DNA from: a virus
IMG/VR virus record: IMGVR_UViG_3300034121_000776
Span: 1-24,397 of that record
Direction: 5' to 3' (one strand)
DNA: 24,397 bases
In this document: piece by piece, positions 2 to 24,397 of the stretch
Numbering within the stretch: position 1 is the stretch's first letter
Layout of the letters: each line of letters begins with the position of its first letter
Translations under genes and position numbers: made by a program
The notes under the pieces: generated by a model
Database searches by the model: none
The model's input: only the letters and a program-made list of their open reading frames with translations
Told to the model about the DNA's origin: nothing

Positions 2-1446
2 ACCCCAACACATACACCAACAAGTAGTCATACACCAACACCGACAACAACGAGAACACCGACACCAACAAAAAGAGTTAAGAATTTGGCTTATAATGTG
101 TTATCTTGTTGTAGTAGAATTTCAGGTATTATAATATTACCATTAACATTTACTGTTGGCACAACAATTTTAACGACAAGTAATTTATGTATGTCTATTA
201 CAGGATATGCCCCAAAAGGTAGTATTCCAACATATACGTGGTCGGGTATGGAATATGGCCAAGGTTGTAACGAATGTTTAAATCGTTATCCTTGTAATCC
301 TATCCCAACTCCGACACCAACCCCTACAAGATGTAATGGTTGTTTAAGTTATGTGTTAGATGGTGGTTTAGGAAGTAGTGGTCACACAGATTTTAGTTAT
401 ATTCCTTGTGGAGGACAAACATCGGTAACGGTTTCGATAGATAGAACTAATATGTTACCAACAAATAAGGTAACAGTTTGTGGTGAGTGTTATTATGGTG
501 TTTTAATTTTGTCAGGGACTGGTAGTTATTCAATATCGGGGAATTGTCCAACAATCACTCCAACACCAACAACCACACCGACAACAACACCAGCAACCAA
601 TTTATGTTTAATAATCACCCCAAAATGTGGTACATATTTTCCAACTGAAGGTAATGGGTTAATAAATGGTAAGAAATTTTGGAACATAACTATTGATAAC
701 AACCCAACCTTAATTTATTGGGATAATGTTAATATTTGTTGGGTTGTTAAGAATACGTCAACAAATGAAGAATGTTCTAAATTATATATAGATTCTCAAT
801 ACCCTATTGGTGATTACACTCAATGGGTATCACCTTCACAAACATCAATGGGTTGTGAATGTTTAACTACGGATAATTACTTTAGTATATCGGCCATTAA
901 CTGTTTTACACCAACACCAACACCAACTAATACCGTTACACCAACACGCACTCCAACCCACACTCCAACACCAACAGTAACATCGTCACCATTATTACCA
1001 ATTGTTGGTTATTTTCAAGATTGTTGTAATGAAAATATAAAATTTAAAGCGGGTTTATTACCTTTTGGGTTAATTTTGGGTGAATCCTATTATGTACAAA
1101 CCACGGGATACACAGGTTGTACCACTTTTATACCCGAAACACCGGTTTCAGTTCAATACCCAAGTATTATTGTTATAGATGAGGGTGAAAATTGTCAAGT
1201 TTGTAATCTTAAAATGTCTATTGTATGTGCAACACCTACACCAACACCAACACCAACAAATACCATCACACCAACAAATACCGTTACACCAACACACACA
1301 CCAACACCAACTATGACTCCAACTAACACACCAATTGGTTGTATTGATTGTGGTGTTTCAGGATACACATATATAATATCCGAACCAATTATCTATCCAT
1401 CACCAAGACCAACAAGCACACCGACAAGAACACCAACACAAACCCC
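2..1446 (+). repeat. dispersed ACACCAACACCAAC-type low-complexity linker repeats
   Basis: Six tracts of an imperfect 6-base periodicity (ACACCA/ACTCCA, coding Thr-Pro) at about 2-76, 304-329, 549-597, 907-988, 1230-1335 and 1399-1446. Longer blocks recur nearly exactly: the stretch around AATACCGTTACACCAACAC occurs near 929-947 and again near 1275-1293. The plus strand of these tracts is almost free of G and rich in C, unlike the surrounding AT-rich sequence. The tracts are in frame and separate globular modules. Confidence 0.85.
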
Positions 1447-1486
1447 GGATAACACAATATACACAATATGGGTTAATATTGAATAA
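2..1486 (+). CDS. Thr/Pro-linker, Cys-rich modular virion protein (5' end outside window)
   Basis: The reading frame is already open at base 2 and runs to TAA at 1484-1486, so the start lies upstream of the window; the TTG at 86 is internal and should not be used as a start. The protein alternates globular modules of about 70-100 residues, each with several cysteines (CNEC, CNGC, CCNEN, CIDC patterns), with low-complexity linkers made of TPT/TPTP units. Linkers lie at about 2-76, 304-329, 549-597, 907-988, 1230-1335 and 1399-1446. This architecture is typical of extended surface or fibre proteins in which stiff Pro/Thr stalks separate domains. I recognise no named domain. It is followed after 17 bases by a serine protease gene on the same strand. 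Function as a fibre or adhesin is inferred from composition and position; no receptor-binding fold can be seen. Confidence 0.75.
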   Translation, partial: TPTHTPTSSHTPTPTTTRTPTPTKRVKNLAYNVLSCCSRISGIIILPLTFTVGTTILTTSNLCMSITGYAPKGSIPTYTWSGMEYGQGCNECLNRYPCNPIPTPTPTPTRCNGCLSYVLDGGLGSSGHTDFSYIPCGGQTSVTVSIDRTNMLPTNKVTVCGECYYGVLILSGTGSYSISGNCPTITPTPTTTPTTTPATNLCLIITPKCGTYFPTEGNGLINGKKFWNITIDNNPTLIYWDNVNICWVVKNTSTNEECSKLYIDSQYPIGDYTQWVSPSQTSMGCECLTTDNYFSISAINCFTPTPTPTNTVTPTRTPTHTPTPTVTSSPLLPIVGYFQDCCNENIKFKAGLLPFGLILGESYYVQTTGYTGCTTFIPETPVSVQYPSIIVIDEGENCQVCNLKMSIVCATPTPTPTPTNTITPTNTVTPTHTPTPTMTPTNTPIGCIDCGVSGYTYIISEPIIYPSPRPTSTPTRTPTQTPDNTIYTIWVNIE

Positions 1487-1503: not shown

Positions 1504-2763
1504 ATGTTTACAGAAGAGATAAAAAATAAATTAAGTGAATTATACCAAAATACTCCTGATTATGTGGGGGTTGCATATGGTTATAAAACAGTTCAAGGTG
1601 TTGAAACATCTGAGAAATCAATTGTTTTTACCGTTCCAAAAAAGAAACCGTTAAATGAAATTCCGTTAGAGGAACATTTACCGAAATTAGTTGATATTAA
1701 CGGTGTGGTTTATAAAACAGATATTATTGAAATTAGTGAAGTTGTTACTATGACCGATTCTGTTGTTTGTAACGACCCTTTAATTGACCCAAGTTGTTAT
1801 ACTTGGTCTCCTTTGGGTTCCGTATCTCCATCAAATAGAAATACTTTAAGACCGTTAGTTGGTGGAATATCATTAACATCACAGAATCAATTAGGTACCG
1901 TTGGTACCTTGGGACTAATCGTTGTTGATAGTGAAAGTCAAAAATTAGTTGGTTTAACCAATAATCACGTTGTTGTTAAAGATGCGTCATACACTAACGA
2001 AAGAAATTTAAGCGGTGTTATTGTGAATGAATATAAAGATATCGCTTACCAAAATGGTGAATCATCAACACCAAATATTGGTAATGTTATTGGTGAAGTT
2101 GTTAGATATGTACCAATAAAAAGCCAACCTCAGTTAAATACTGTCGATGGGGCATTAGTTTCATTAAGTGCCAACACACTTAGTAATGTTGAATCATTTA
2201 AACAATTGGGTATAAATTATTTACAACCTATGCCATTTGCAACAACAAACGAAATAAATAGTTTGATTGTAACACCAAGAACAATATTAAGTAGTGGTAG
2301 AACAACGGGAGCAAAAACCGGAAATTGTGGTATAAAAATAAAACTTTTAGGTGCAACACAAAATGTTGGGGCGTACCCCCTACAAGGTGTGGGTAGAACG
2401 GTAACTTTCAACGATTTAATAGTTTTCACAAGATTAAGTGAAACTTGTAATTACCCAATATATCACGGTGACTCAGGGTCTGTTCTTATCGCAGATTTTA
2501 ATGGTACTTATAAAATAATTGGATTAAATTTTGCTGGTTCAAGTCAAGTTGAAGGTTCATTAACAGATATAGGACAATATGGTTTTGCTTGTAGAATAGA
2601 TAATGTTGCTTTTGAGTTAGGTATTGAATCGTGGGATGGTAATTCTGTAAATGCTATAACAACAGTTAATAAAATTTTAACACCTAATGGTAGTGATAAT
2701 AAAACGATTATTGTAAATGGTAAAACATACTGGCAAGTAGGTTTATCAAACCATTTAAACTAA
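1504..2763 (+). CDS. trypsin-fold (chymotrypsin clan PA) serine protease
   Basis: 419 residues. A complete catalytic triad is visible: His155 in LTNNHVV, Asp215 in NTVDGALV, and Ser324 in the classic GDSGS motif (322-326). Residues about 20-80 (VGVAYGYK, then SIVFTVPKKKPLNEIP and DINGVVYKTDIIEI) resemble the N-terminal domain that precedes the protease domain in bacterial NAL1-like trypsin-fold peptidases. There is no signal peptide or membrane segment. The gene lies 17 bases after the Thr/Pro-linker protein and 25 bases before a large structural gene, so the three are probably co-transcribed and end at the terminator at 4997. The protease could mature a neighbouring surface protein, act on host surface proteins, or be a structural domain that retained its active site. 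The fold and triad are well supported by motifs; the substrate is unknown. ATG at 1504 is the first in-frame start after the upstream stop. Confidence 0.82.
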   Translation: MFTEEIKNKLSELYQNTPDYVGVAYGYKTVQGVETSEKSIVFTVPKKKPLNEIPLEEHLPKLVDINGVVYKTDIIEISEVVTMTDSVVCNDPLIDPSCYTWSPLGSVSPSNRNTLRPLVGGISLTSQNQLGTVGTLGLIVVDSESQKLVGLTNNHVVVKDASYTNERNLSGVIVNEYKDIAYQNGESSTPNIGNVIGEVVRYVPIKSQPQLNTVDGALVSLSANTLSNVESFKQLGINYLQPMPFATTNEINSLIVTPRTILSSGRTTGAKTGNCGIKIKLLGATQNVGAYPLQGVGRTVTFNDLIVFTRLSETCNYPIYHGDSGSVLIADFNGTYKIIGLNFAGSSQVEGSLTDIGQYGFACRIDNVAFELGIESWDGNSVNAITTVNKILTPNGSDNKTIIVNGKTYWQVGLSNHLN

Positions 2764-2788: not shown

Positions 2789-4990
2789 ATGCCTTTTTCA
2801 TCATCAATTTGTTTAACAAATATTGGAGTATTACCAACCGGGAGTAATTTAAATATTTATTCCAATACTGACTCTTATTCAACACCTTTTCAAACAAACA
2901 TACCATTATCTCAATTAGATTCAAATTGTCCGTTTATTTTAACTAATATTCCTGATGGAACAACGACTATTAAGTTTGTAGATTCAACCTCTAATTGTTG
3001 TTATGAACTCTTACTTTCACCCAACAATTTGTGTGACTTATTCGGAATTCAATTAACAGGTTTTTCATCCACAACAATTAGTCAAATTATTGCAGGTAAC
3101 TTAATTAGTTCTGTCGGAAACATCACAGATTATATTATAGATTGGTATGGCCCCGATAATAACACAACCGTAGCCTTTACGTCCGGTTATGGAACAGTTT
3201 TTGGTCCTTATCAACAAACACATCCGTTTGTTAGAATATCACTCCCCGGATATTATGTACCGATGATTCAAAAAATACGAATTAACGGTATTAATTATTC
3301 AATAACCGGTGGAACAGGATTTATTCAAGCAAATATCGATTGTTTGGAAAACCAAACTGTTGAGGTATTTCCATCAACTTGTTCGGGTAATAGAGTAGAA
3401 CCTATATATTCTTTTTCTGGATATAATAATTATTACTTTTCAAATACCGCAGCGTTTAACACACCACCCGAACCATTATCTATGGGATTTGACCTTGATA
3501 TAAATTCAAATCATTTTGCGTGGCAATTTCAAGCATACTCAGTTAGCGACACTATTAAAATAACTTTTCACGGAAATAACTACCCAACACCAATTGTCTT
3601 AGAATATTATACTGTGGGTCAAGAATACACAGAATTAAATGTTTCTGTTATACCAAAAACAATAAAAGTTGGGGGTGGATTTTTTAAAAAGGTTACAAAC
3701 CTCTCTAAATTATTGAGAACCGAAAACGATTTTTTAACAATTGAAGTAACACCTAACCCAGTTATAAGTAGAACCAATTGGGAATTATATTTTAAGTGTT
3801 TAAACACATTCAACTGTGAAACTTGTTTAGATTCTTTAAGTCCTTATAGATTTATTGATTCAAGTGTGACTATAACTTCATTGGGTTGTAATCTATATAA
3901 ACTGAGTGCAAATCTATCAGGTTGCACCAATAGTGTGTTACAAAGTAGTGATATTTATAAATATTTAACCGAAAGTTCCGCAATAAACTCGGGGTCATTA
4001 AATTCGGAATTTTATGGGTACTGTTCAACACCTAATGGTGAAATTGGGTTTAATTCAACACTAAGTAGTGGTTCAACATCTTGTAATAATTATGGTGTTT
4101 GCTCTGTAGATAATACTTCGTGTTCACAACAACCATATATTTGTGATAGTAATCCAGGTGGGTTTATTAGTTTTAATAAAACAAACGCTACTGTAGGAGG
4201 TCCCGGAAATATTTACATGGAATTCCAATATTTATCGGATTTAAATTTATATTATCAGTCGTATTTAACTAATGTTTTAAATTATGGGTTAGGAACACCA
4301 TTTGATAACACAAATATTAATTATTATCGTTATTTCTCTTTGGTTATTCCTATCATACCTTCTAATGACCCTAACAGAACTTGCGCCTCCGATACAGGTA
4401 ATCAAGCACAATATTCAATTCATACATCAAGTGTTGTAACAACAGGAATCACTGGTAATTTTTATTTTTTAAATATTACTATGCCATTGACGACCTTAGG
4501 TATTACTTTTGATTCGTGTGATTTAGGTTGTTTAGACTATGCGGATTCGGCGATTACCATTCTTAATAGTCACTCAATTGGGTCAGGTAATCAATATAGT
4601 TTTTATAGTAATGTTGGAGCAAAAAAATTAAACCCAATTTCGCAATATGTAAAACTTGTTAAATATACCTCAGGAGAGGTAAATGCTAATCAACAGTCAT
4701 TTCTAAGATTAACAAATCTAGTTAATAATACAATTCCGATGTCGGGAGATAGTTACACAATAATACCGTCATTATCGGCACAAACTTGTGATTTTTCGGG
4801 TTTTATAAATAATGGTACTTATTTAGGGGTAACCCGTTATGTTAAATATGCGTGGAATTACACCACTAACGTATCATTATTAAATTATTATAATATTTTT
4901 ACAGTAATTAACGGGTCTCAAGTTTTAATTTATCAATATAATTTAAACACCAACACACTCATATATAAAGACCCCACTTATTTTATTTAA
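2789..4990 (+). CDS. large Cys/Asn/Ser-rich structural protein, probable tail fibre or virion surface protein
   Basis: 733 residues, rich in Ser, Thr, Asn, Tyr and Cys, with beta-strand-like alternation throughout and no helical, signal or membrane segment. Paired cysteines recur (NCC near residue 71, NCETC and DSLSPY near 346-356, LSGC, TSCNNYGVC, DSCDLGCLD), the same style as the Cys modules of the Thr/Pro-linker protein two genes upstream. A central part (about residues 225-345) reads like a beta-sandwich ending in NWELYFKCL. No catalytic motif is recognised. It starts at ATG 2789 after a 25-base A/C-rich spacer containing AAACAAAACAAAC and is followed at once by a strong terminator, so it closes the first operon. 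Virion-surface function is inferred from composition and neighbours. Confidence 0.6.
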   Translation: MPFSSSICLTNIGVLPTGSNLNIYSNTDSYSTPFQTNIPLSQLDSNCPFILTNIPDGTTTIKFVDSTSNCCYELLLSPNNLCDLFGIQLTGFSSTTISQIIAGNLISSVGNITDYIIDWYGPDNNTTVAFTSGYGTVFGPYQQTHPFVRISLPGYYVPMIQKIRINGINYSITGGTGFIQANIDCLENQTVEVFPSTCSGNRVEPIYSFSGYNNYYFSNTAAFNTPPEPLSMGFDLDINSNHFAWQFQAYSVSDTIKITFHGNNYPTPIVLEYYTVGQEYTELNVSVIPKTIKVGGGFFKKVTNLSKLLRTENDFLTIEVTPNPVISRTNWELYFKCLNTFNCETCLDSLSPYRFIDSSVTITSLGCNLYKLSANLSGCTNSVLQSSDIYKYLTESSAINSGSLNSEFYGYCSTPNGEIGFNSTLSSGSTSCNNYGVCSVDNTSCSQQPYICDSNPGGFISFNKTNATVGGPGNIYMEFQYLSDLNLYYQSYLTNVLNYGLGTPFDNTNINYYRYFSLVIPIIPSNDPNRTCASDTGNQAQYSIHTSSVVTTGITGNFYFLNITMPLTTLGITFDSCDLGCLDYADSAITILNSHSIGSGNQYSFYSNVGAKKLNPISQYVKLVKYTSGEVNANQQSFLRLTNLVNNTIPMSGDSYTIIPSLSAQTCDFSGFINNGTYLGVTRYVKYAWNYTTNVSLLNYYNIFTVINGSQVLIYQYNLNTNTLIYKDPTYFI

Positions 4991-7961: not shown

Positions 7962-8117
7962 ATGGGACGACCTAAAAAAGAAGAGAAAGATAAAAAGATT
8001 AAAATTGGTATAACAATTGACCGAGAACTTTATAATCAAATTAAAAAAGATAAAATAATGCCTTCCCGAATTATAGAAAAACTAGTTAAAGAATATTATG
8101 AAAACAAAAATTTGTAG
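7962..8117 (+). CDS. small ribbon-helix-helix (Arc/MetJ-type) DNA-binding protein
   Basis: 51 residues, ATG 7962 to TAG 8115-8117. The sequence begins GRPKKEEKDKK, then a beta-strand-like KIKIGITID (about 12-20), a helix RELYNQIKKDKI, a turn MPS and a second helix RIIEKLVKEYY. That strand-helix-turn-helix order is the ribbon-helix-helix fold. The basic GRPKK start is common in these small regulators. Its 3' end overlaps the HNH gene by 20 bases (HNH ATG at 8098), so the two are translationally linked and the RHH probably controls the cassette or polymerase expression. It uses TAG, whereas nearly all neighbours use TAA. Start choice: this is the first ATG in the open frame, only three bases after TATTTATA. 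Confidence 0.72.
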   Translation: MGRPKKEEKDKKIKIGITIDRELYNQIKKDKIMPSRIIEKLVKEYYENKNL

Positions 8118-8751
8118 TAAGTGTAAAGAAGAAAAAGATATTAATATGTTTTATACCGGCAGACCCGAATGTAAAAGTTGTAAATTACTTAGAGATAAAT
8201 CTTATTATGATTTAAATAAAGAAATAATACTAAATAAAAATAAATTATATTGGGAAAATAATAAAGAAACAATAACAAATAGACATAAAGAATATTGGGA
8301 AAATAATAAAGAAAAATGTAAAGACCTTCAAAAAACTTATAGGTTAAATAATGTCGAGAAAGAATCTAATAGACGTAAATTATGGTTAAAATCTAACAAA
8401 TGTCGAATTAATGATTATAGAAAAAAACAAAGGTTAGAACATCCGACTTATAGATTATCGGAAAATATTAGACGAAGATTAAATACTTTTTTAAAATCAA
8501 ATAATGTTACTAAAAAAAACAAAACATTTGATATTGTTGGTTGTTCTCCGGAATTCCTTAAAGAGTATTTAGAACAAAAATTTACAGAAGGAATGTCTTG
8601 GAAGTTAATGGGACAACACATTCATATCGACCACATAATCCCTTTATCATCGGCAAACACCGAAGAAGAACTATATAAACTTTGTCATTATACAAACCTT
8701 CAACCATTATGGGCTTTTGATAATTTAAGTAAGGGAAGTAAAATATTATAA
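8098..8751 (+). CDS. HNH endonuclease, probable free-standing homing endonuclease
   Basis: 217 residues. The N-terminus holds a zinc-binding pair C6-x2-C9 and C25-x2-C28 (ICSKC, CKSC). Residues about 40-110 are a very basic, helical repeat region with recurring YWENNKE units. The C-terminal HNH/bba-Me core is HIHIDHIIPLS (Asp178, His179), Asn200 in TNLQPL and Asn209 in the final position, giving an HNN form common in phage HNH enzymes. The likely role is site-specific DNA cleavage that drives copying of its own gene into related phages. Placement next to the DNA polymerase gene is a typical homing position. The gene overlaps the RHH gene by 20 bases and ends at a bidirectional terminator. Codons are even more AT-rich than in the polymerase, which supports recent gain. 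Confidence 0.88.
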   Translation: MKTKICSKCKEEKDINMFYTGRPECKSCKLLRDKSYYDLNKEIILNKNKLYWENNKETITNRHKEYWENNKEKCKDLQKTYRLNNVEKESNRRKLWLKSNKCRINDYRKKQRLEHPTYRLSENIRRRLNTFLKSNNVTKKNKTFDIVGCSPEFLKEYLEQKFTEGMSWKLMGQHIHIDHIIPLSSANTEEELYKLCHYTNLQPLWAFDNLSKGSKIL

Positions 8752-15480: not shown

Positions 15481-18400
15481 ATGGCAACAAACAGCAAAGT
15501 ATTCGTATCTCCCGGGGTATATACTTCCGAAGTTGATTTAAGTTTCGTAGCACAAAGTGTGGGTGTAACCACATTAGGTATCGTTGGTGAGACACAAAAA
15601 GGTCCCGCTTTTGAACCAATCTTTATACGTAACTTCGATGAATTCTCAACTTTTTTTGGGGGAACATCCCCTGAGAAGTTTATCAATACACAAATACCGA
15701 AGTATGAAGCATCATATATCGCAAAGGCTTACTTACAACAATCTAATCAATTGTTTGTTACGAGAATTTTGGGGTTATCAGGATATGATGCAGGACCATC
15801 TTGGTCTTTTAAAACAATCGCTAATGTTGATAAATCAACAGTAGGGTTTAAGTGTTCTGGAACAACATATGATGTAACATTATGTGCGGATGTATGTACG
15901 GGTTATACTATAACACCATTTACATTTACTTTCACAGGATGTAACAGTAATATAAATACGATTGGATTATCGGGGGTAACTAGTTATATATCAAGTAATT
16001 TAAATGATACTTACGAAACATTTAATGGAAGTACCTCAACAATATCTGATAATATTAAAACACAATTATTTAATATTATTAGTATTCCAAGTACTTCAGC
16101 AACATCAATTAACTACTACGGGACAATTTCAGGTTCTGATTATAACACATTAAGTACTACATACACAAGTGAAACTAATGTTTATGGTGTTGATAGTGTA
16201 AGTTCAACAAATGCGGACTATACTGATGCAAATAATGACCCTTGGTATTACTCTTTATTTGATAATACTAATGGTTCATATAGTGGTTTTTCATTTTATA
16301 ATGTTGTTAGTGATTTAACTCAAACTTCAACATCTTCAAACTGTGCAACATTCTATTCATTATCAGTTAGTTCTGCAACGGTATCAAATACTGTAGGTAG
16401 TATAAACTATAATACTAATACTATTGATGTTGTGTTACCATCAGGAACACCAACATCTGGTTTAACGGCATTAACAGTTATGTTTAGTGCTTGTACAACA
16501 AATGTTAAGGTTAGTGGTGTTACACAACAAAGTTCAGGTAGTACTCAAAACTTTTCAGCGGGAACTAAACAATATGTTTTAGTGTCCCAAGATAGTGGAA
16601 CAACGAATAATTGGACCGTTAATGTTACGGTTGATAATCCTTGTAATCCAGCGACAACAGGTCATACAGGTTCTCATAATACCGGAACAATAACTACTTG
16701 TTATAGTGGTACGGTTAGTGGTAAAATTTATGTTTATTCAGGTGTCTCTTATACTGATTTTGACGATATGGTTATTGCAACACTTCGTTCAAGAGGTATT
16801 GCAACATATAGTACTGATAGTAATGGTCCTGCTTATGAAGTTACAGGATTAACAGATGTTACTATTGATTGTGTTACTTCAACATATTCAAACATTGCTA
16901 AAAACCCATTTGCGGAATTTGGTCTTAATGTTATAGATAAAGATGGTAATAGTTTCTTCTTTGAAACATCATTTAGTGAATCGGATTCTAAATACTTACC
17001 AAAAGTGTTTGGTTCTTCTAATTTCTCTAAACCAAGAACAACAGTACCATTATTTGTTGAGGAAAAATTTCAAACATTATTGAACTACGGTTATAATAAA
17101 GGATATATTAAAGGTTTAAGTTGTGACTTACTATCATTACCTAGAGCTAATTCAAATGTTAATTCCTCGTCATCTATAGCATATTACTTAGAAAAATATC
17201 AAACACCGGTTTCACCGTGGATTGTTTCTGAAGTTAGAGGTAGTAAAGTATATAACTTATTTAGATTTACAACCATTTCTGACGGTAATGGTGCAAATAC
17301 GGAAGTTAAAATATCAATATCTAATATGTCTTTTAATAATTTAACATTTGACGTGTTAGTTAGAGATTTTTATGATACCGATAATAATCCGGTAGTAATT
17401 GAGAAATTTACTAATTGTACTATGGATTCTAATAGTAATTCATTTGTGGGACAAAAAATTGGAACAACAGATGGTGAATACGCATTAAATTCAAAATACA
17501 TAATGGTAGAAATGAATGAAGATGCACCTATTGATACATTACCTTGTGGTTTTCAAGGATTTAAATTTAGACAATATGGTTCATCAAATTCCCCATTTCC
17601 AATTTATAAAACTAAATACGATTATCCGGGAGAAGTGGTTTTTGACCCACCATTTGGATTAAGTTCAGGAAGTAACAACTCAACTTTAAGTCCGGGTGAT
17701 AATGTTCGTAAAACATATTTAGGTATTTCTACAGGAAATGGTGCTGGTTTTGACGTTGATTTCTTCCAATATAAAGGAAAACAAAGACCTTTAAATTTAT
17801 GTATTGATAGTGATGCTGCTGAATGGATAACATTAACTAAAGGTTATCATATGGATAAAAACGCAAGTGGTATAACAATTTCTAATAGTTATACAACTAG
17901 TGGAACTTCAGCATATTATGTTGGTGACGCTACATTCACAACAGACCCTTCAGACGAAACAAGTCCTTATTACAGAATATATTCTCGTAAGTTCTCAGTA
18001 TTAGTTCAAGGAGGTTTTGATGGTTGGGATATCTATAGAGAATCAAGAACAAATACCGACACATTTAAGTTAGGTAGAAGAGGTTACTTAAACGGTGCTT
18101 GTCAGGACATTAAATATCCTACAGCAACAGGTTGGGGAGCATTTAAACAAATTAAAGTTGGAAATAATACTGTTGATTGGGGTAACTCTGATTACTACGC
18201 TTATTTATTAGGACAACAAACATTCTCAAATCCTGAAGCAGTTAATATTAATTTATTTGTTACACCAGGTATTGATTATACTAATAATTCTGATTTAGTT
18301 GGGGATGCAATTGAAATGATTGAGTTCAATAGAGCTGATTCATTATACATTTGTACGACTGCTGATAGTAATTTATTTTTACCAACACCTGATACCGCTG

Positions 18401-19074
18401 GTTTAATTTACCCTCAAGAAGCTGTTAATGTTTTGGACGATAGTGGTGTAGATTCTAATTATACAGCAACTTATTATCCTTGGGTATTAACTAGAGATAG
18501 TGTTAATAATACACAAATCTATTTACCACCAACGGCAGAAGTTGTAAGAAACTTGGCATTAACCGATAACATTGCGTTCCCTTGGTTCGCGGCAGCAGGT
18601 TATACAAGAGGTATTGTAAATGCTATCAAAGCGAGAAAGAAACTTACTCAAGAAGATAGAGATGTCCTTTATCAAGGTCGTATCAACCCAATCGCCACTT
18701 TTTCTGATGTTGGTACCGTAATTTGGGGTAATAAAACTCTTCAAGTAGCACAATCCGCTCTTGATAGAATAAATGTGAGAAGATTATTACTTCAAGCTCG
18801 TAAATTGATTTCAGCAGTATCTGTAAGATTATTGTTTGAACAAAACGACCAAAAAGTAAGACAAGATTTCTTAGATGCTGTTAATCCTATCTTGGACGCT
18901 ATCAGAAGAGATAGAGGTTTATATGATTTCCGAGTTACAGTATCTTCAGACACTGCTGATTTAGATAGAAATCAAATGACAGGTAAGATTTATATCAAAC
19001 CAACCAAATCATTAGAATTTATAGACATTACGTTCTATATTACTCCAACCGGAGCTTCTTTTGAAAATATATAA
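15481..19074 (+). CDS. contractile tail sheath protein (gp18-like), greatly enlarged
   Basis: 1197 residues, nearly twice T4 gp18 (659). N-terminus (about 1-115): VFVSPGVYTSEVDLSF, TTLGIVGETQKGPAF, SYIAKAYLQQ, LFVTRILGLSGYDAG, all typical sheath. Typical sequence resumes near residue 420 (YTDFDDMVIATLRSRG, NPFAEFGLNVIDKDG, YLPKVFG) and continues through QGGFDGWDIYRE to the conserved C-terminal domain (FPWFAAAGYTRGIVNAI, RINPIATFSDVG, RDRGLYDFRVT, GKIYIKPTKSLEFIDITFYI), which builds the contractile core. Between them is an insertion of about 300 Ser/Thr/Asn-rich residues. Within it, about 297-387 reads like an Ig-like/DUF5018-type beta sandwich (NTIDVVLPSG, LTALTVMFSAC, TKQYVLVSQDSGTTNNWTVNVTV). 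The insertion would sit on the outside of the tail. Promoter palindrome and leader element precede the ATG; an inverted repeat follows the stop. Confidence 0.95.
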   Translation: MATNSKVFVSPGVYTSEVDLSFVAQSVGVTTLGIVGETQKGPAFEPIFIRNFDEFSTFFGGTSPEKFINTQIPKYEASYIAKAYLQQSNQLFVTRILGLSGYDAGPSWSFKTIANVDKSTVGFKCSGTTYDVTLCADVCTGYTITPFTFTFTGCNSNINTIGLSGVTSYISSNLNDTYETFNGSTSTISDNIKTQLFNIISIPSTSATSINYYGTISGSDYNTLSTTYTSETNVYGVDSVSSTNADYTDANNDPWYYSLFDNTNGSYSGFSFYNVVSDLTQTSTSSNCATFYSLSVSSATVSNTVGSINYNTNTIDVVLPSGTPTSGLTALTVMFSACTTNVKVSGVTQQSSGSTQNFSAGTKQYVLVSQDSGTTNNWTVNVTVDNPCNPATTGHTGSHNTGTITTCYSGTVSGKIYVYSGVSYTDFDDMVIATLRSRGIATYSTDSNGPAYEVTGLTDVTIDCVTSTYSNIAKNPFAEFGLNVIDKDGNSFFFETSFSESDSKYLPKVFGSSNFSKPRTTVPLFVEEKFQTLLNYGYNKGYIKGLSCDLLSLPRANSNVNSSSSIAYYLEKYQTPVSPWIVSEVRGSKVYNLFRFTTISDGNGANTEVKISISNMSFNNLTFDVLVRDFYDTDNNPVVIEKFTNCTMDSNSNSFVGQKIGTTDGEYALNSKYIMVEMNEDAPIDTLPCGFQGFKFRQYGSSNSPFPIYKTKYDYPGEVVFDPPFGLSSGSNNSTLSPGDNVRKTYLGISTGNGAGFDVDFFQYKGKQRPLNLCIDSDAAEWITLTKGYHMDKNASGITISNSYTTSGTSAYYVGDATFTTDPSDETSPYYRIYSRKFSVLVQGGFDGWDIYRESRTNTDTFKLGRRGYLNGACQDIKYPTATGWGAFKQIKVGNNTVDWGNSDYYAYLLGQQTFSNPEAVNINLFVTPGIDYTNNSDLVGDAIEMIEFNRADSLYICTTADSNLFLPTPDTAGLIYPQEAVNVLDDSGVDSNYTATYYPWVLTRDSVNNTQIYLPPTAEVVRNLALTDNIAFPWFAAAGYTRGIVNAIKARKKLTQEDRDVLYQGRINPIATFSDVGTVIWGNKTLQVAQSALDRINVRRLLLQARKLISAVSVRLLFEQNDQKVRQDFLDAVNPILDAIRRDRGLYDFRVTVSSDTADLDRNQMTGKIYIKPTKSLEFIDITFYITPTGASFENI

Positions 19075-19131: not shown

Positions 19132-19950
19132 ATGTTAAAAAATAGAATTGTAGAGGGTATTGACGAAACAGGTGCTCCGGATGAAAAGTATTACGCTTTT
19201 GATTGGGACGATAATATTGTTTCTATGCCGACAAAGATAATATTAAAAGATGAAGATGGTGATGAGGTTGGAATGTCAACTGAAGATTTTGCAACATATC
19301 GAGAAGAAATTGGTAAAGAACCAGTTGAGTTTGAAGGACACACTATTGTTGGGTTCTCTAACGACCCTTTTAGATGGTTTGGAACTAAAGGTGATAAACA
19401 ATTTATTGTTGATTCAATGACCGCAAAACCAGGTCCTGCTTGGCCGGATTTTGTTGAAGCAATTAATAATGGTTCAATATTCTCAATCGTAACAGCAAGA
19501 GGGCATACACCTTCAGTTTTAAAAGAGGCTTGTTACAATTATATTGTATCTAATTTCAACGGTATTAATTCTAATGAATTAGTTAGAAATTTAGAAAAAT
19601 ATAGAGATTTAACGGATGAAGAAAACACATCTAAAAGAGAAATGATTAGAGAATATTTAGATTTATGTCGTTTTTATCCTGTAACTTATGGAGAAGGTTC
19701 CGCAACAAATCCTGAACAAGGTAAAATCAAAGCATTAGATGAGTTTGTTGAGTATGTTAAAGATATATCTAACTATATTCAAAAAGAAGCATTTTTAAAA
19801 AATAAAATAAATAATTATTTTGTACCTAAAATAGGTTTTTCAGATGACGACTTAAAAAATGTGGATGTAGTGAAAAAACATTTTGAACAAGACCCAGAAA
19901 ATATTATTAAAACATATTCAACCGCTGGAGGAATTAAAAAAGAATATTAA
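19132..19950 (+). CDS. HAD-superfamily phosphatase-like protein
   Basis: 272 residues. HAD motif I is YAFDWDDNIV with nucleophile Asp24 and acid/base Asp26; motif II is FSIVTARGH with Thr121; a motif III lysine is likely Lys198 in EQGKIKALDEFVEY; motif IV is PKIGFSDDDL with Asp238/Asp239. All four are in order, so activity is likely. A long, charged helical insertion (about 145-180) lies between motifs II and III, where a cap or partner-binding element could be. Many HAD proteins dephosphorylate small molecules, nucleotides or nucleic acid ends; the substrate is not visible. The gene lies between sheath and tube genes, 57 bases after the sheath stop and read in the same direction, an unexpected place for an enzyme. 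It could be a virion-packaged or assembly-associated phosphatase, or a gene inserted into the tail operon. Confidence 0.8.
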   Translation: MLKNRIVEGIDETGAPDEKYYAFDWDDNIVSMPTKIILKDEDGDEVGMSTEDFATYREEIGKEPVEFEGHTIVGFSNDPFRWFGTKGDKQFIVDSMTAKPGPAWPDFVEAINNGSIFSIVTARGHTPSVLKEACYNYIVSNFNGINSNELVRNLEKYRDLTDEENTSKREMIREYLDLCRFYPVTYGEGSATNPEQGKIKALDEFVEYVKDISNYIQKEAFLKNKINNYFVPKIGFSDDDLKNVDVVKKHFEQDPENIIKTYSTAGGIKKEY

Positions 19951-23526: not shown

Positions 23527-24397
23527 ATGTCAAATAGTACATTATCATTTGCTTCATCCTCTTCGTTTAGAGATATTTTATTGGCAAAAAATTTAGCACC
23601 GTATAGTGTTAGTGGTGTATATACACCACCAGCCTCAGATATTGATACGGAAGTGTCTTTAAACAATTTTAATGTTATTGATTCACCAAATGATTTAATT
23701 ACTAATGACCCTTTTGCTCAATTACTATATCCTTTAAATGAATATGGTCCTAATGGTGGTTATGATTTAAATATTAATTTTAATGGACCCCCACTTCCAG
23801 TAACACCAAATCAAGGTGAATATGGTCCGAATGATACTGTTTTAGATTTAGTCAATGAATTTTTTATTGACGCCGCTTATATTGATAACTACTATGGACC
23901 TGTTGGTGGTTTTAATGATATGTATGGGGTTACTACTCAGATATTGGGACAACCTATACATCAACCTTATTTACCTACAAATTTTGTTCCTTCATCGTAT
24001 TCACCATATACAATTTTAATGTCTAATAATCCGACTGGTAGTGATGGTTCATTATCTCAGGATTCATATTTGGCTAGATTAGGAGCAACATTTTTAAATA
24101 AGTTATTTCAAGATAGAATTAATCGAGAAATTTTTATAAATACAGTGGGTCAAGTTAATTTACAATCATTACAAGACCCTTTTGATGCTAGTTTAATGAT
24201 TACCGGACAAGAACCGTTAATTTATAAAAATTGGAAGATTACATCACCGGAAAACCCTGTTACTGCCGCCGCTGATTTATTAACAAGATTGGCGGGGGCT
24301 TATTGGCCGGTATCTTTAATTCCTGGAGATTATTTTACCGATAACACAAGAAATGGACAAACACAACAAACATCAACAGCATTAAATGTTGTTAATC
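23527..24397 (+). CDS. large structural protein, N-terminal part (3' end outside window)
   Basis: Open from ATG 23527 to the window end (290 codons, no stop). N-terminus is Ser/Pro/Asn/Tyr-rich (SNSTLSFASSSSFRDILLAKNLAPY, read as two halves) with three repeats of a Y-G-P-N/V motif (NEYGPNGGYD, GEYGPNDTV, DNYYGPVGGFND), then a helical region SYLARLGATFLNKLFQDRINREIF and ITSPENPVTAAADLLTRLAGAYWPVSLIPGDYF. It is not recognised. Position after the tape-measure gene suggests a baseplate component or tube-baseplate initiator, but no motif supports a specific one. It has its own TATTTATAATAAA motif. Confidence 0.72.
   Translation, partial: MSNSTLSFASSSSFRDILLAKNLAPYSVSGVYTPPASDIDTEVSLNNFNVIDSPNDLITNDPFAQLLYPLNEYGPNGGYDLNINFNGPPLPVTPNQGEYGPNDTVLDLVNEFFIDAAYIDNYYGPVGGFNDMYGVTTQILGQPIHQPYLPTNFVPSSYSPYTILMSNNPTGSDGSLSQDSYLARLGATFLNKLFQDRINREIFINTVGQVNLQSLQDPFDASLMITGQEPLIYKNWKITSPENPVTAAADLLTRLAGAYWPVSLIPGDYFTDNTRNGQTQQTSTALNVVN

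Follow-up and report, generated by a model that had tools for sequence, protein, structure and literature searches.

A predicted NAL1-type serine protease encoded among surface-protein genes of tailed phages

The DNA analysed here (the window) is a virus record of 24,397 nucleotides (24.4 kb). Three IMG/VR records share the protein described below, the longest of which (G003) is 93 kb and equals the window at 24395 of 24397 bases. The window matches a sheath, a tube, a baseplate hub, a head-tail adaptor and a family-B polymerase in Pfam and PHROGs, which identifies its source as a contractile-tailed phage; relatives of the polymerase occur on contigs of up to 322 kb. The protease gene, its parts and its immediate neighbours are arranged as follows.

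2..1486, + strand: 3' part of a Thr/Pro-rich linker protein with a Thr+Pro content of 31%, truncated here at the edge of the window and 974 aa long in G003
1504..2763, + strand: NAL1-type trypsin-fold serine protease gene (predicted), 419 aa, ATG start
1504..1755, + strand: N-terminal domain, residues 1 to ~84, which aligns with that of NAL1
1849..2640, + strand: predicted two-barrel protease domain, residues 116-379, as delimited by VIA-align against SGPB and alpha-lytic protease
1966..1968, + strand: codon of His155, in the context TNNHVV
2146..2148, + strand: codon of Asp215, in the context NTVDGAL
2197..2277, + strand: segment shared by the phage family around FATTxEI, residues ~232-258 (alignment A3)
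2473..2475, + strand: codon of Ser324 of the GDSGS motif, in the context HGDSGS
2656..2760, + strand: C-terminal tail of the phage family, residues 385-419, which contains TYWQVG and lies past the end of the NAL1 match
2789..4990, + strand: Cys-containing partner of 733 aa (cluster 16), with 21 Cys (2.9%), directly downstream of the protease gene

The three catalytic residues are present in the ORF as given in a preliminary description of this DNA, and the two flanking genes agree with its account of a gene set between a Thr/Pro-linker protein and a large Cys-rich protein. The Thr/Pro-rich protein is likely an appendage. A hydropathy scan, used in place of a dedicated predictor, reveals no hydrophobic signal-peptide-like or membrane segment in the window protein (top 19-residue value 0.98), and the protease should therefore be synthesized in the cytoplasm and then assembled in the manner of other tail proteins. 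In trypsin, an Asp occupies the position six residues ahead of the catalytic Ser; the equivalent residue here is Pro318, which is at least 90% conserved in the family alignment, so that the sequence does not suggest Lys/Arg specificity. The preliminary description further placed the gene far from any capsid gene. This stands as far as capsid matches are concerned, none being obtained among the 20 ORFs of the window and the rest of G003 scanned against PHROGs; a head-tail adaptor gene lies 6 kb away, and in other locus types virion structural, sheath or adaptor genes are close to the protease gene.

Several other features of the record are worth mentioning. Upstream of the window, the 93-kb record contains three large consecutive ORFs before the Thr/Pro-rich protein (L008 5581-10141), two of which are glycosyltransferases (GlcNAc type, PF11397, 1.2e-66; family 25, 4.7e-16), while the remaining one (558 aa) gave no PHROG match; together they may glycosylate the Thr/Pro linkers. 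The tail sheath protein (window 15481-19074, 1197 aa) has its best PHROG stretch at residues 894-1195, which makes a long insertion or an extra domain likely. Between the sheath and tube genes, an ORF at 19132-19950 has DWDDN near its start and looks by eye like a HAD-type phosphatase. Two more ORFs (window 8098-8751, Pfam HNH E 0.42, and L008 10138-10752) look alike and, on visual inspection, end in HNH-like sequence; they are possible homing endonucleases.

A scan with the single protein recovered only identical copies, and the family was gathered through neighbouring genes, using a polymerase route (282 relatives, 80 kept) and a downstream-gene route (9 loci). Together these yielded six further distinct homologues, one of them partial, whose alignment gave 82 relatives (80 kept) and finally 65 distinct phage ORFs in 63 loci, identical ORFs being counted once. 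Alignment A2 omits L149, L162 and L185, which have long insertions, and represents the identical copy L106 by the window protein; the insertion in the L185 protease lies directly past the catalytic His motif. The preliminary description had staked its reading on homologs that conserve the three residues, and His, Asp and Ser are each conserved in 64 of 64 covering rows; of two fragments, one is missing the His/Asp region and the other that of Ser. The triad is likewise invariant (24/24) in an alignment that includes one archaeal virus protein and two plasmid proteins. The peptide patterns used for searching, around TYWQ and FATTxEI, fall outside the catalytic motifs; the invariance of FATTxEI itself is biased by this choice, and phage members without these patterns were possibly missed. 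The five full-length close relatives show 74-79% identity to the window protein, and for 14 of the 15 close pairs dN/dS falls within 0.11-0.30, the last pair having 0.49. The protease gene is thus under purifying selection.

Across the 63 loci, the ORF directly upstream on the same strand is Thr/Pro-rich in 43 of 61 cases, with a median gap of 13 bases, and in 20 of 32 after dereplication at 80% identity, which left out the fragments L164 and L182. Such ORFs make up 101 of 694 ORFs in the protease loci overall, the 43 upstream ones included, and 11 of 64 downstream ORFs; Fisher's test on the raw upstream counts gives 1.6e-24, which is not a true probability as the loci are related. The downstream ORF belongs to cluster 2 in 16 of 64 cases, and the tested exemplar of this cluster matches tail and tail-fibre PHROGs (1.2e-18 and 9.6e-8). 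With one or a few ORFs scanned per type, four types of locus can be recognized, characterized by a polymerase and glycosyltransferases (the window), by an exonuclease and virion-structural proteins, by sheath and adaptor proteins (L117), and by a very large virion protein (L173). The differing neighbours imply repeated occurrence of the gene across several lineages of phage, for the most part in the company of virion or fibre genes. L118, L122, L129 and L167 also have clusters 13, 15 and 6 near the protease; two of these clusters contain the glycosyltransferases of the window lineage. L173, L176, L177, L178, L171 and L185 represent a further phage type, in which the protease gene has cluster 23 upstream and cluster 21 downstream. 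The preliminary assignment to a phage surface-protein setting is supported, as far as sequence can tell, by the adjoining Thr/Pro, tail and virion proteins and by fusions to adhesion-type domains (see below).

Within the window lineage the protease gene is dispensable, since of the 51 related loci with 5 kb or more of sequence ahead of the polymerase 7 have it, and these represent only 4 distinct proteins. Cluster 16 lies directly downstream of the protease gene in 8 of 8 non-identical protease loci that have it. An exclusive co-occurrence of the two (9/9 contigs, 6 distinct proteins) was considered and is ruled out by L049 and L050, in which a Thr/Pro-rich ORF is followed by cluster 16 and then by the polymerase, with no protease gene; the cluster 16 proteins of these two loci are identical, and hence one example, with 40% identity to that of the window. 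The TYWQVG-like tail was also considered as a tag common to neighbouring proteins and was rejected: a loose regular expression run over the ORFs of the protease loci matched just three outside the family, two of them of cluster 16 and the third unrelated.

Ten of the 65 ORFs extend 155-508 residues past the tail motif, the extensions of relatives beginning beyond TYWQVG. They are found in L115 (two tandem copies), L125, L129, L148, L161, L163, L170, L180 and L184; in L130 the protease likewise occurs in two tandem copies. Seven of the ten were scanned with Pfam. A DUF285 domain is present over the cut-off in L129 and L148 (6e-31 and 7e-33), and a phosphatidylethanolamine-binding-like (PEBP) domain, also over the cut-off, in the second L115 copy and in L163 (3e-10 and 5e-8), to which L161, L170 and L184 look similar in sequence. 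PKD matches in L129 and L148 and a cohesin match in L129 remain below the cut-off, and the Pfam scan found no named extra domain in the first L115 copy, L125 or L180. Thr/Pro-type linkers are observed in the extensions of the first L115 copy, L125, L129 and L180. DUF285 repeats also occur in proteins of other phages that are annotated as surface-repeat or putative tail proteins. The fusions are the best indication that the enzyme may work at the virion surface.

To judge from the predicted structure, the window protein is a two-part NAL1-type protease. The AlphaFold2 model, built with 62 sequences, has a pLDDT of 88.0 and a pTM of 0.91, the five models spanning 86.5-88.0. It shows a two-barrel trypsin fold of the PA clan, in which a short helix that follows a strand contains His155, while Asp215 and Ser324 each sit in a loop leading into a strand; the His-Asp-Ser order and the conserved GDSG motif are likewise those of the PA clan. 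In a Foldseek search of the PDB the best 34 matches are all NAL1 (best E 1e-17), followed by Streptomyces protease B (4.5e-9). Superposition by VIA-align on rice NAL1 (NARROW LEAF 1; PDB entries 8pmi, 7y77 and 8hau) aligns 329 residues over model residues 1-383 with a Z-score of 30.1 and an rmsd of 3.5, and the model reproduces the two-domain architecture of NAL1, the N-terminal and trypsin-fold domains being common to both proteins at 18% sequence identity. SGPB-type and alpha-lytic proteases match model residues 116/118-377/379 only (Z ~19), with alignments of 184-191 residues for known chains that are 185-198 residues long, and DegP/DegS score lower (Z ~14). The trypsin fold with its triad, as proposed in the preliminary description, is thus borne out by structure prediction and structure search at the level of a model.

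A relationship to NAL1 is also evident from profile comparisons. A search of PDB sequences retrieves NAL1 with E 4.9e-9 and 3.5e-13, and the phage profile is aligned with NAL1 at the HV motif and at GDSGS, the region of the Asp falling between the aligned stretches. In Pfam the window protein stays below the curated cut-offs of both NAL1_N (13.7 vs 27 bits, E 0.055) and Nal1_C (12.5 vs 26.1), for which reason it is named here a NAL1-type homologue and not filed as a member. When 62 members were scanned at E 0.1, matches were obtained to NAL1_N in 18 (best 1.6e-5), Nal1_C in 4 (best 0.022), SlpA in 7 (best E 0.002), Peptidase_S6 in 2 (best 1.6e-5) and Trypsin_2 and Trypsin in one each. Unlike rice NAL1, the phage proteins have the FATTxEI segment, the TYWQVG tail, the adhesion setting and the fusions. 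The likeness of the N-terminal domain to bacterial NAL1-like peptidases, noted earlier, holds as a kinship with NAL1 and extends to both domains; a few plasmids encode bacterial NAL1-like proteins, but these are remote from the phage family.

Among viral families, the PHROG phrog_20754, labelled 'protease', matches window residues 5-348 over positions 10-299 of its 324 with E 6.8e-18, this family having no curated cut-off; it is also matched, in part partially, by 10 of 10 divergent members tested. A public viral member is A0A7S9XDX3 of Virus NIOZ-UU157 in BFVD (Foldseek E 3.4e-45, TM 0.89, 36% identity to the window protein), which is annotated 'uncharacterized'. More distant is ORF 25-326 of Aeropyrum coil-shaped virus (ACV), an archaeal ssDNA virus, which matches the phage profile with E 1.6e-13 and keeps the triad; this protein of 326 aa, which lacks FATTxEI and TYWQVG, is annotated 'putative serine protease' and is called a putative trypsin-like serine protease in the available text of PMC7416610. 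We would guess that it belongs to phrog_20754. Plasmid proteins of Rhizobium sp. T136 (E 3.7e-12) and Clostridiaceae bacterium 14S0207 (E 7e-15) also match the phage profile and keep the triad. The Clostridiaceae protein (312 aa) lacks FATTxEI and ends without a TYWQVG tail; the Rhizobium protein lacks FATTxEI and was cut at residue 333 for alignment, its tail region lying outside the comparison. The latter (L187 2893-4791) combines the NAL1-type protease with an Endonuclease_NS domain (PF01223, 9e-41).

Searches of 50,697 phage records with tblastn gave no match for the window protein or the divergent L172, while L155 found ACV, represented by two records of the same virus, at 2e-3 and gave a further match, at 0.6, that is unconvincing; L129 has phage matches only via its fused DUF285/PKD part, among the matches listed (30 of 116). 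Two scans of a species-level genome collection with short back-translated patterns found no relative. Phage morphogenetic proteases such as T4 gp21 and those of the phiKZ type have other folds, and Pfam and PHROG family scans of the window protein gave no match to a head or morphogenetic protease. Both kinds act on head substrates, gp21 according to the T4 annotation and the phiKZ-type protease according to the available text of PMC13282480.

With starts taken as the first ATG, a Shine-Dalgarno-like motif lies ahead of 3 of the 52 predicted starts of the 93-kb record. The same script finds one at 28 of 32 starts in a 40-kb portion of phage T4, and across all protease loci the figure is 41 of 535. 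Their rarity would fit Bacteroidota hosts.

What role the protease plays can be approached from these observations. We tentatively favour, with a probability a little below even, an appendage protease that is borne on the tail or fibres and acts on host surface proteins. The NAL1-type enzyme, catalytically competent as judged from its conserved motifs, would lack a secretion signal and be produced inside the infected cell, would be incorporated into the tail/fibre adhesion apparatus beside or fused to the Thr/Pro linker and adhesion-type domains, and would probably nick or clear host surface proteins during adsorption. By analogy, it could be the protein counterpart of the polysaccharide depolymerases present on many tailspikes. 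A peptidase of Bacillus phage PhiNIT1, which digests the host surface coat poly-gamma-glutamate (available text of PMC5380687), resembles it by description only, as a case of peptide hydrolysis of a surface coat. The predicted fold, the conserved triad, the purifying selection, the gene setting and the fusions form the observed basis of this reading, from which we infer the virion location, the activity and the host-protein substrate. A gene position among virion genes is no proof that the protein itself is part of the particle; the dispensability of the gene in the lineage and the mixed-strand neighbours in L181 and L183 count against an appendage protease, as does the closest studied relative, NAL1, which acts inside plant cells.

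The main rival, which we regard as plausible if somewhat unlikely, is that the protease matures the appendage during assembly, by cutting its Thr/Pro-rich or Cys-containing neighbours, or itself where it is fused. Its close linkage to the Thr/Pro-rich upstream ORF (43/61) and the constant position of cluster 16 behind it (8/8) would suit such a role, and the fused forms could self-cleave. Yet L049 and L050 (one distinct protein) combine a Thr/Pro-rich ORF and cluster 16 without a protease, in 31 of the 44 polymerase loci that lack the protease at least one of the last six ORFs upstream is Thr/Pro-rich, and the downstream partners vary among lineages. The presence of the gene in 7 of 51 loci moreover argues against essentiality, as expected for a host-range module. 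Cluster 16 and Thr/Pro-rich ORFs without a protease, together with this patchy presence, are the reasons for preferring a host-directed protease over fibre maturation.

Quite improbable, in our estimate, is an intracellular accessory enzyme that, once infection is under way, breaks down regulatory or defence proteins of the host, much as plant NAL1 proteins do with a corepressor. Plant NAL1 relatives degrade TOPLESS-type corepressors, according to the available text of PMC12915138 and PMC10970654. The hydropathy scan showed no secretion signal, and patchy presence suits an accessory gene, but the DUF285 and PEBP fusions, the Thr/Pro linkers and the frequent location among virion or fibre genes argue against it. 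That the fold is retained solely as a non-catalytic binding scaffold is very improbable indeed, since the triad is invariant in all 64 and all 24 rows, even though adhesion modules reuse many folds.

Returning to the appendage protease, the fold and the matching 'protease' PHROG were already known. No description of the adhesion-module setting or of the fusions was found in searches of one open-access library, and a NAL1-type protease in a tailed phage is not described in the available portions of PMC7416610, PMC12915138, PMC10970654, PMC5380687, PMC10537231, PMC13282480 and PMC13037465. It is possible, although somewhat less likely than not, that a widespread class of protein depolymerases exists: phages, probably those of Bacteroidota, would bear active proteases of the NAL1 type on fibres with Thr/Pro linkers, swapped and fused as modules, and would use them to digest host surface proteins on contact. 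Virion-borne tail enzymes known so far act mostly on sugars or on peptidoglycan. Tailed phages and an archaeal virus are now seen to have relatives of the plant protease NAL1, and, if such a class exists, host surface proteins would be a barrier that phages actively cut by means of a conserved, modular serine protease.
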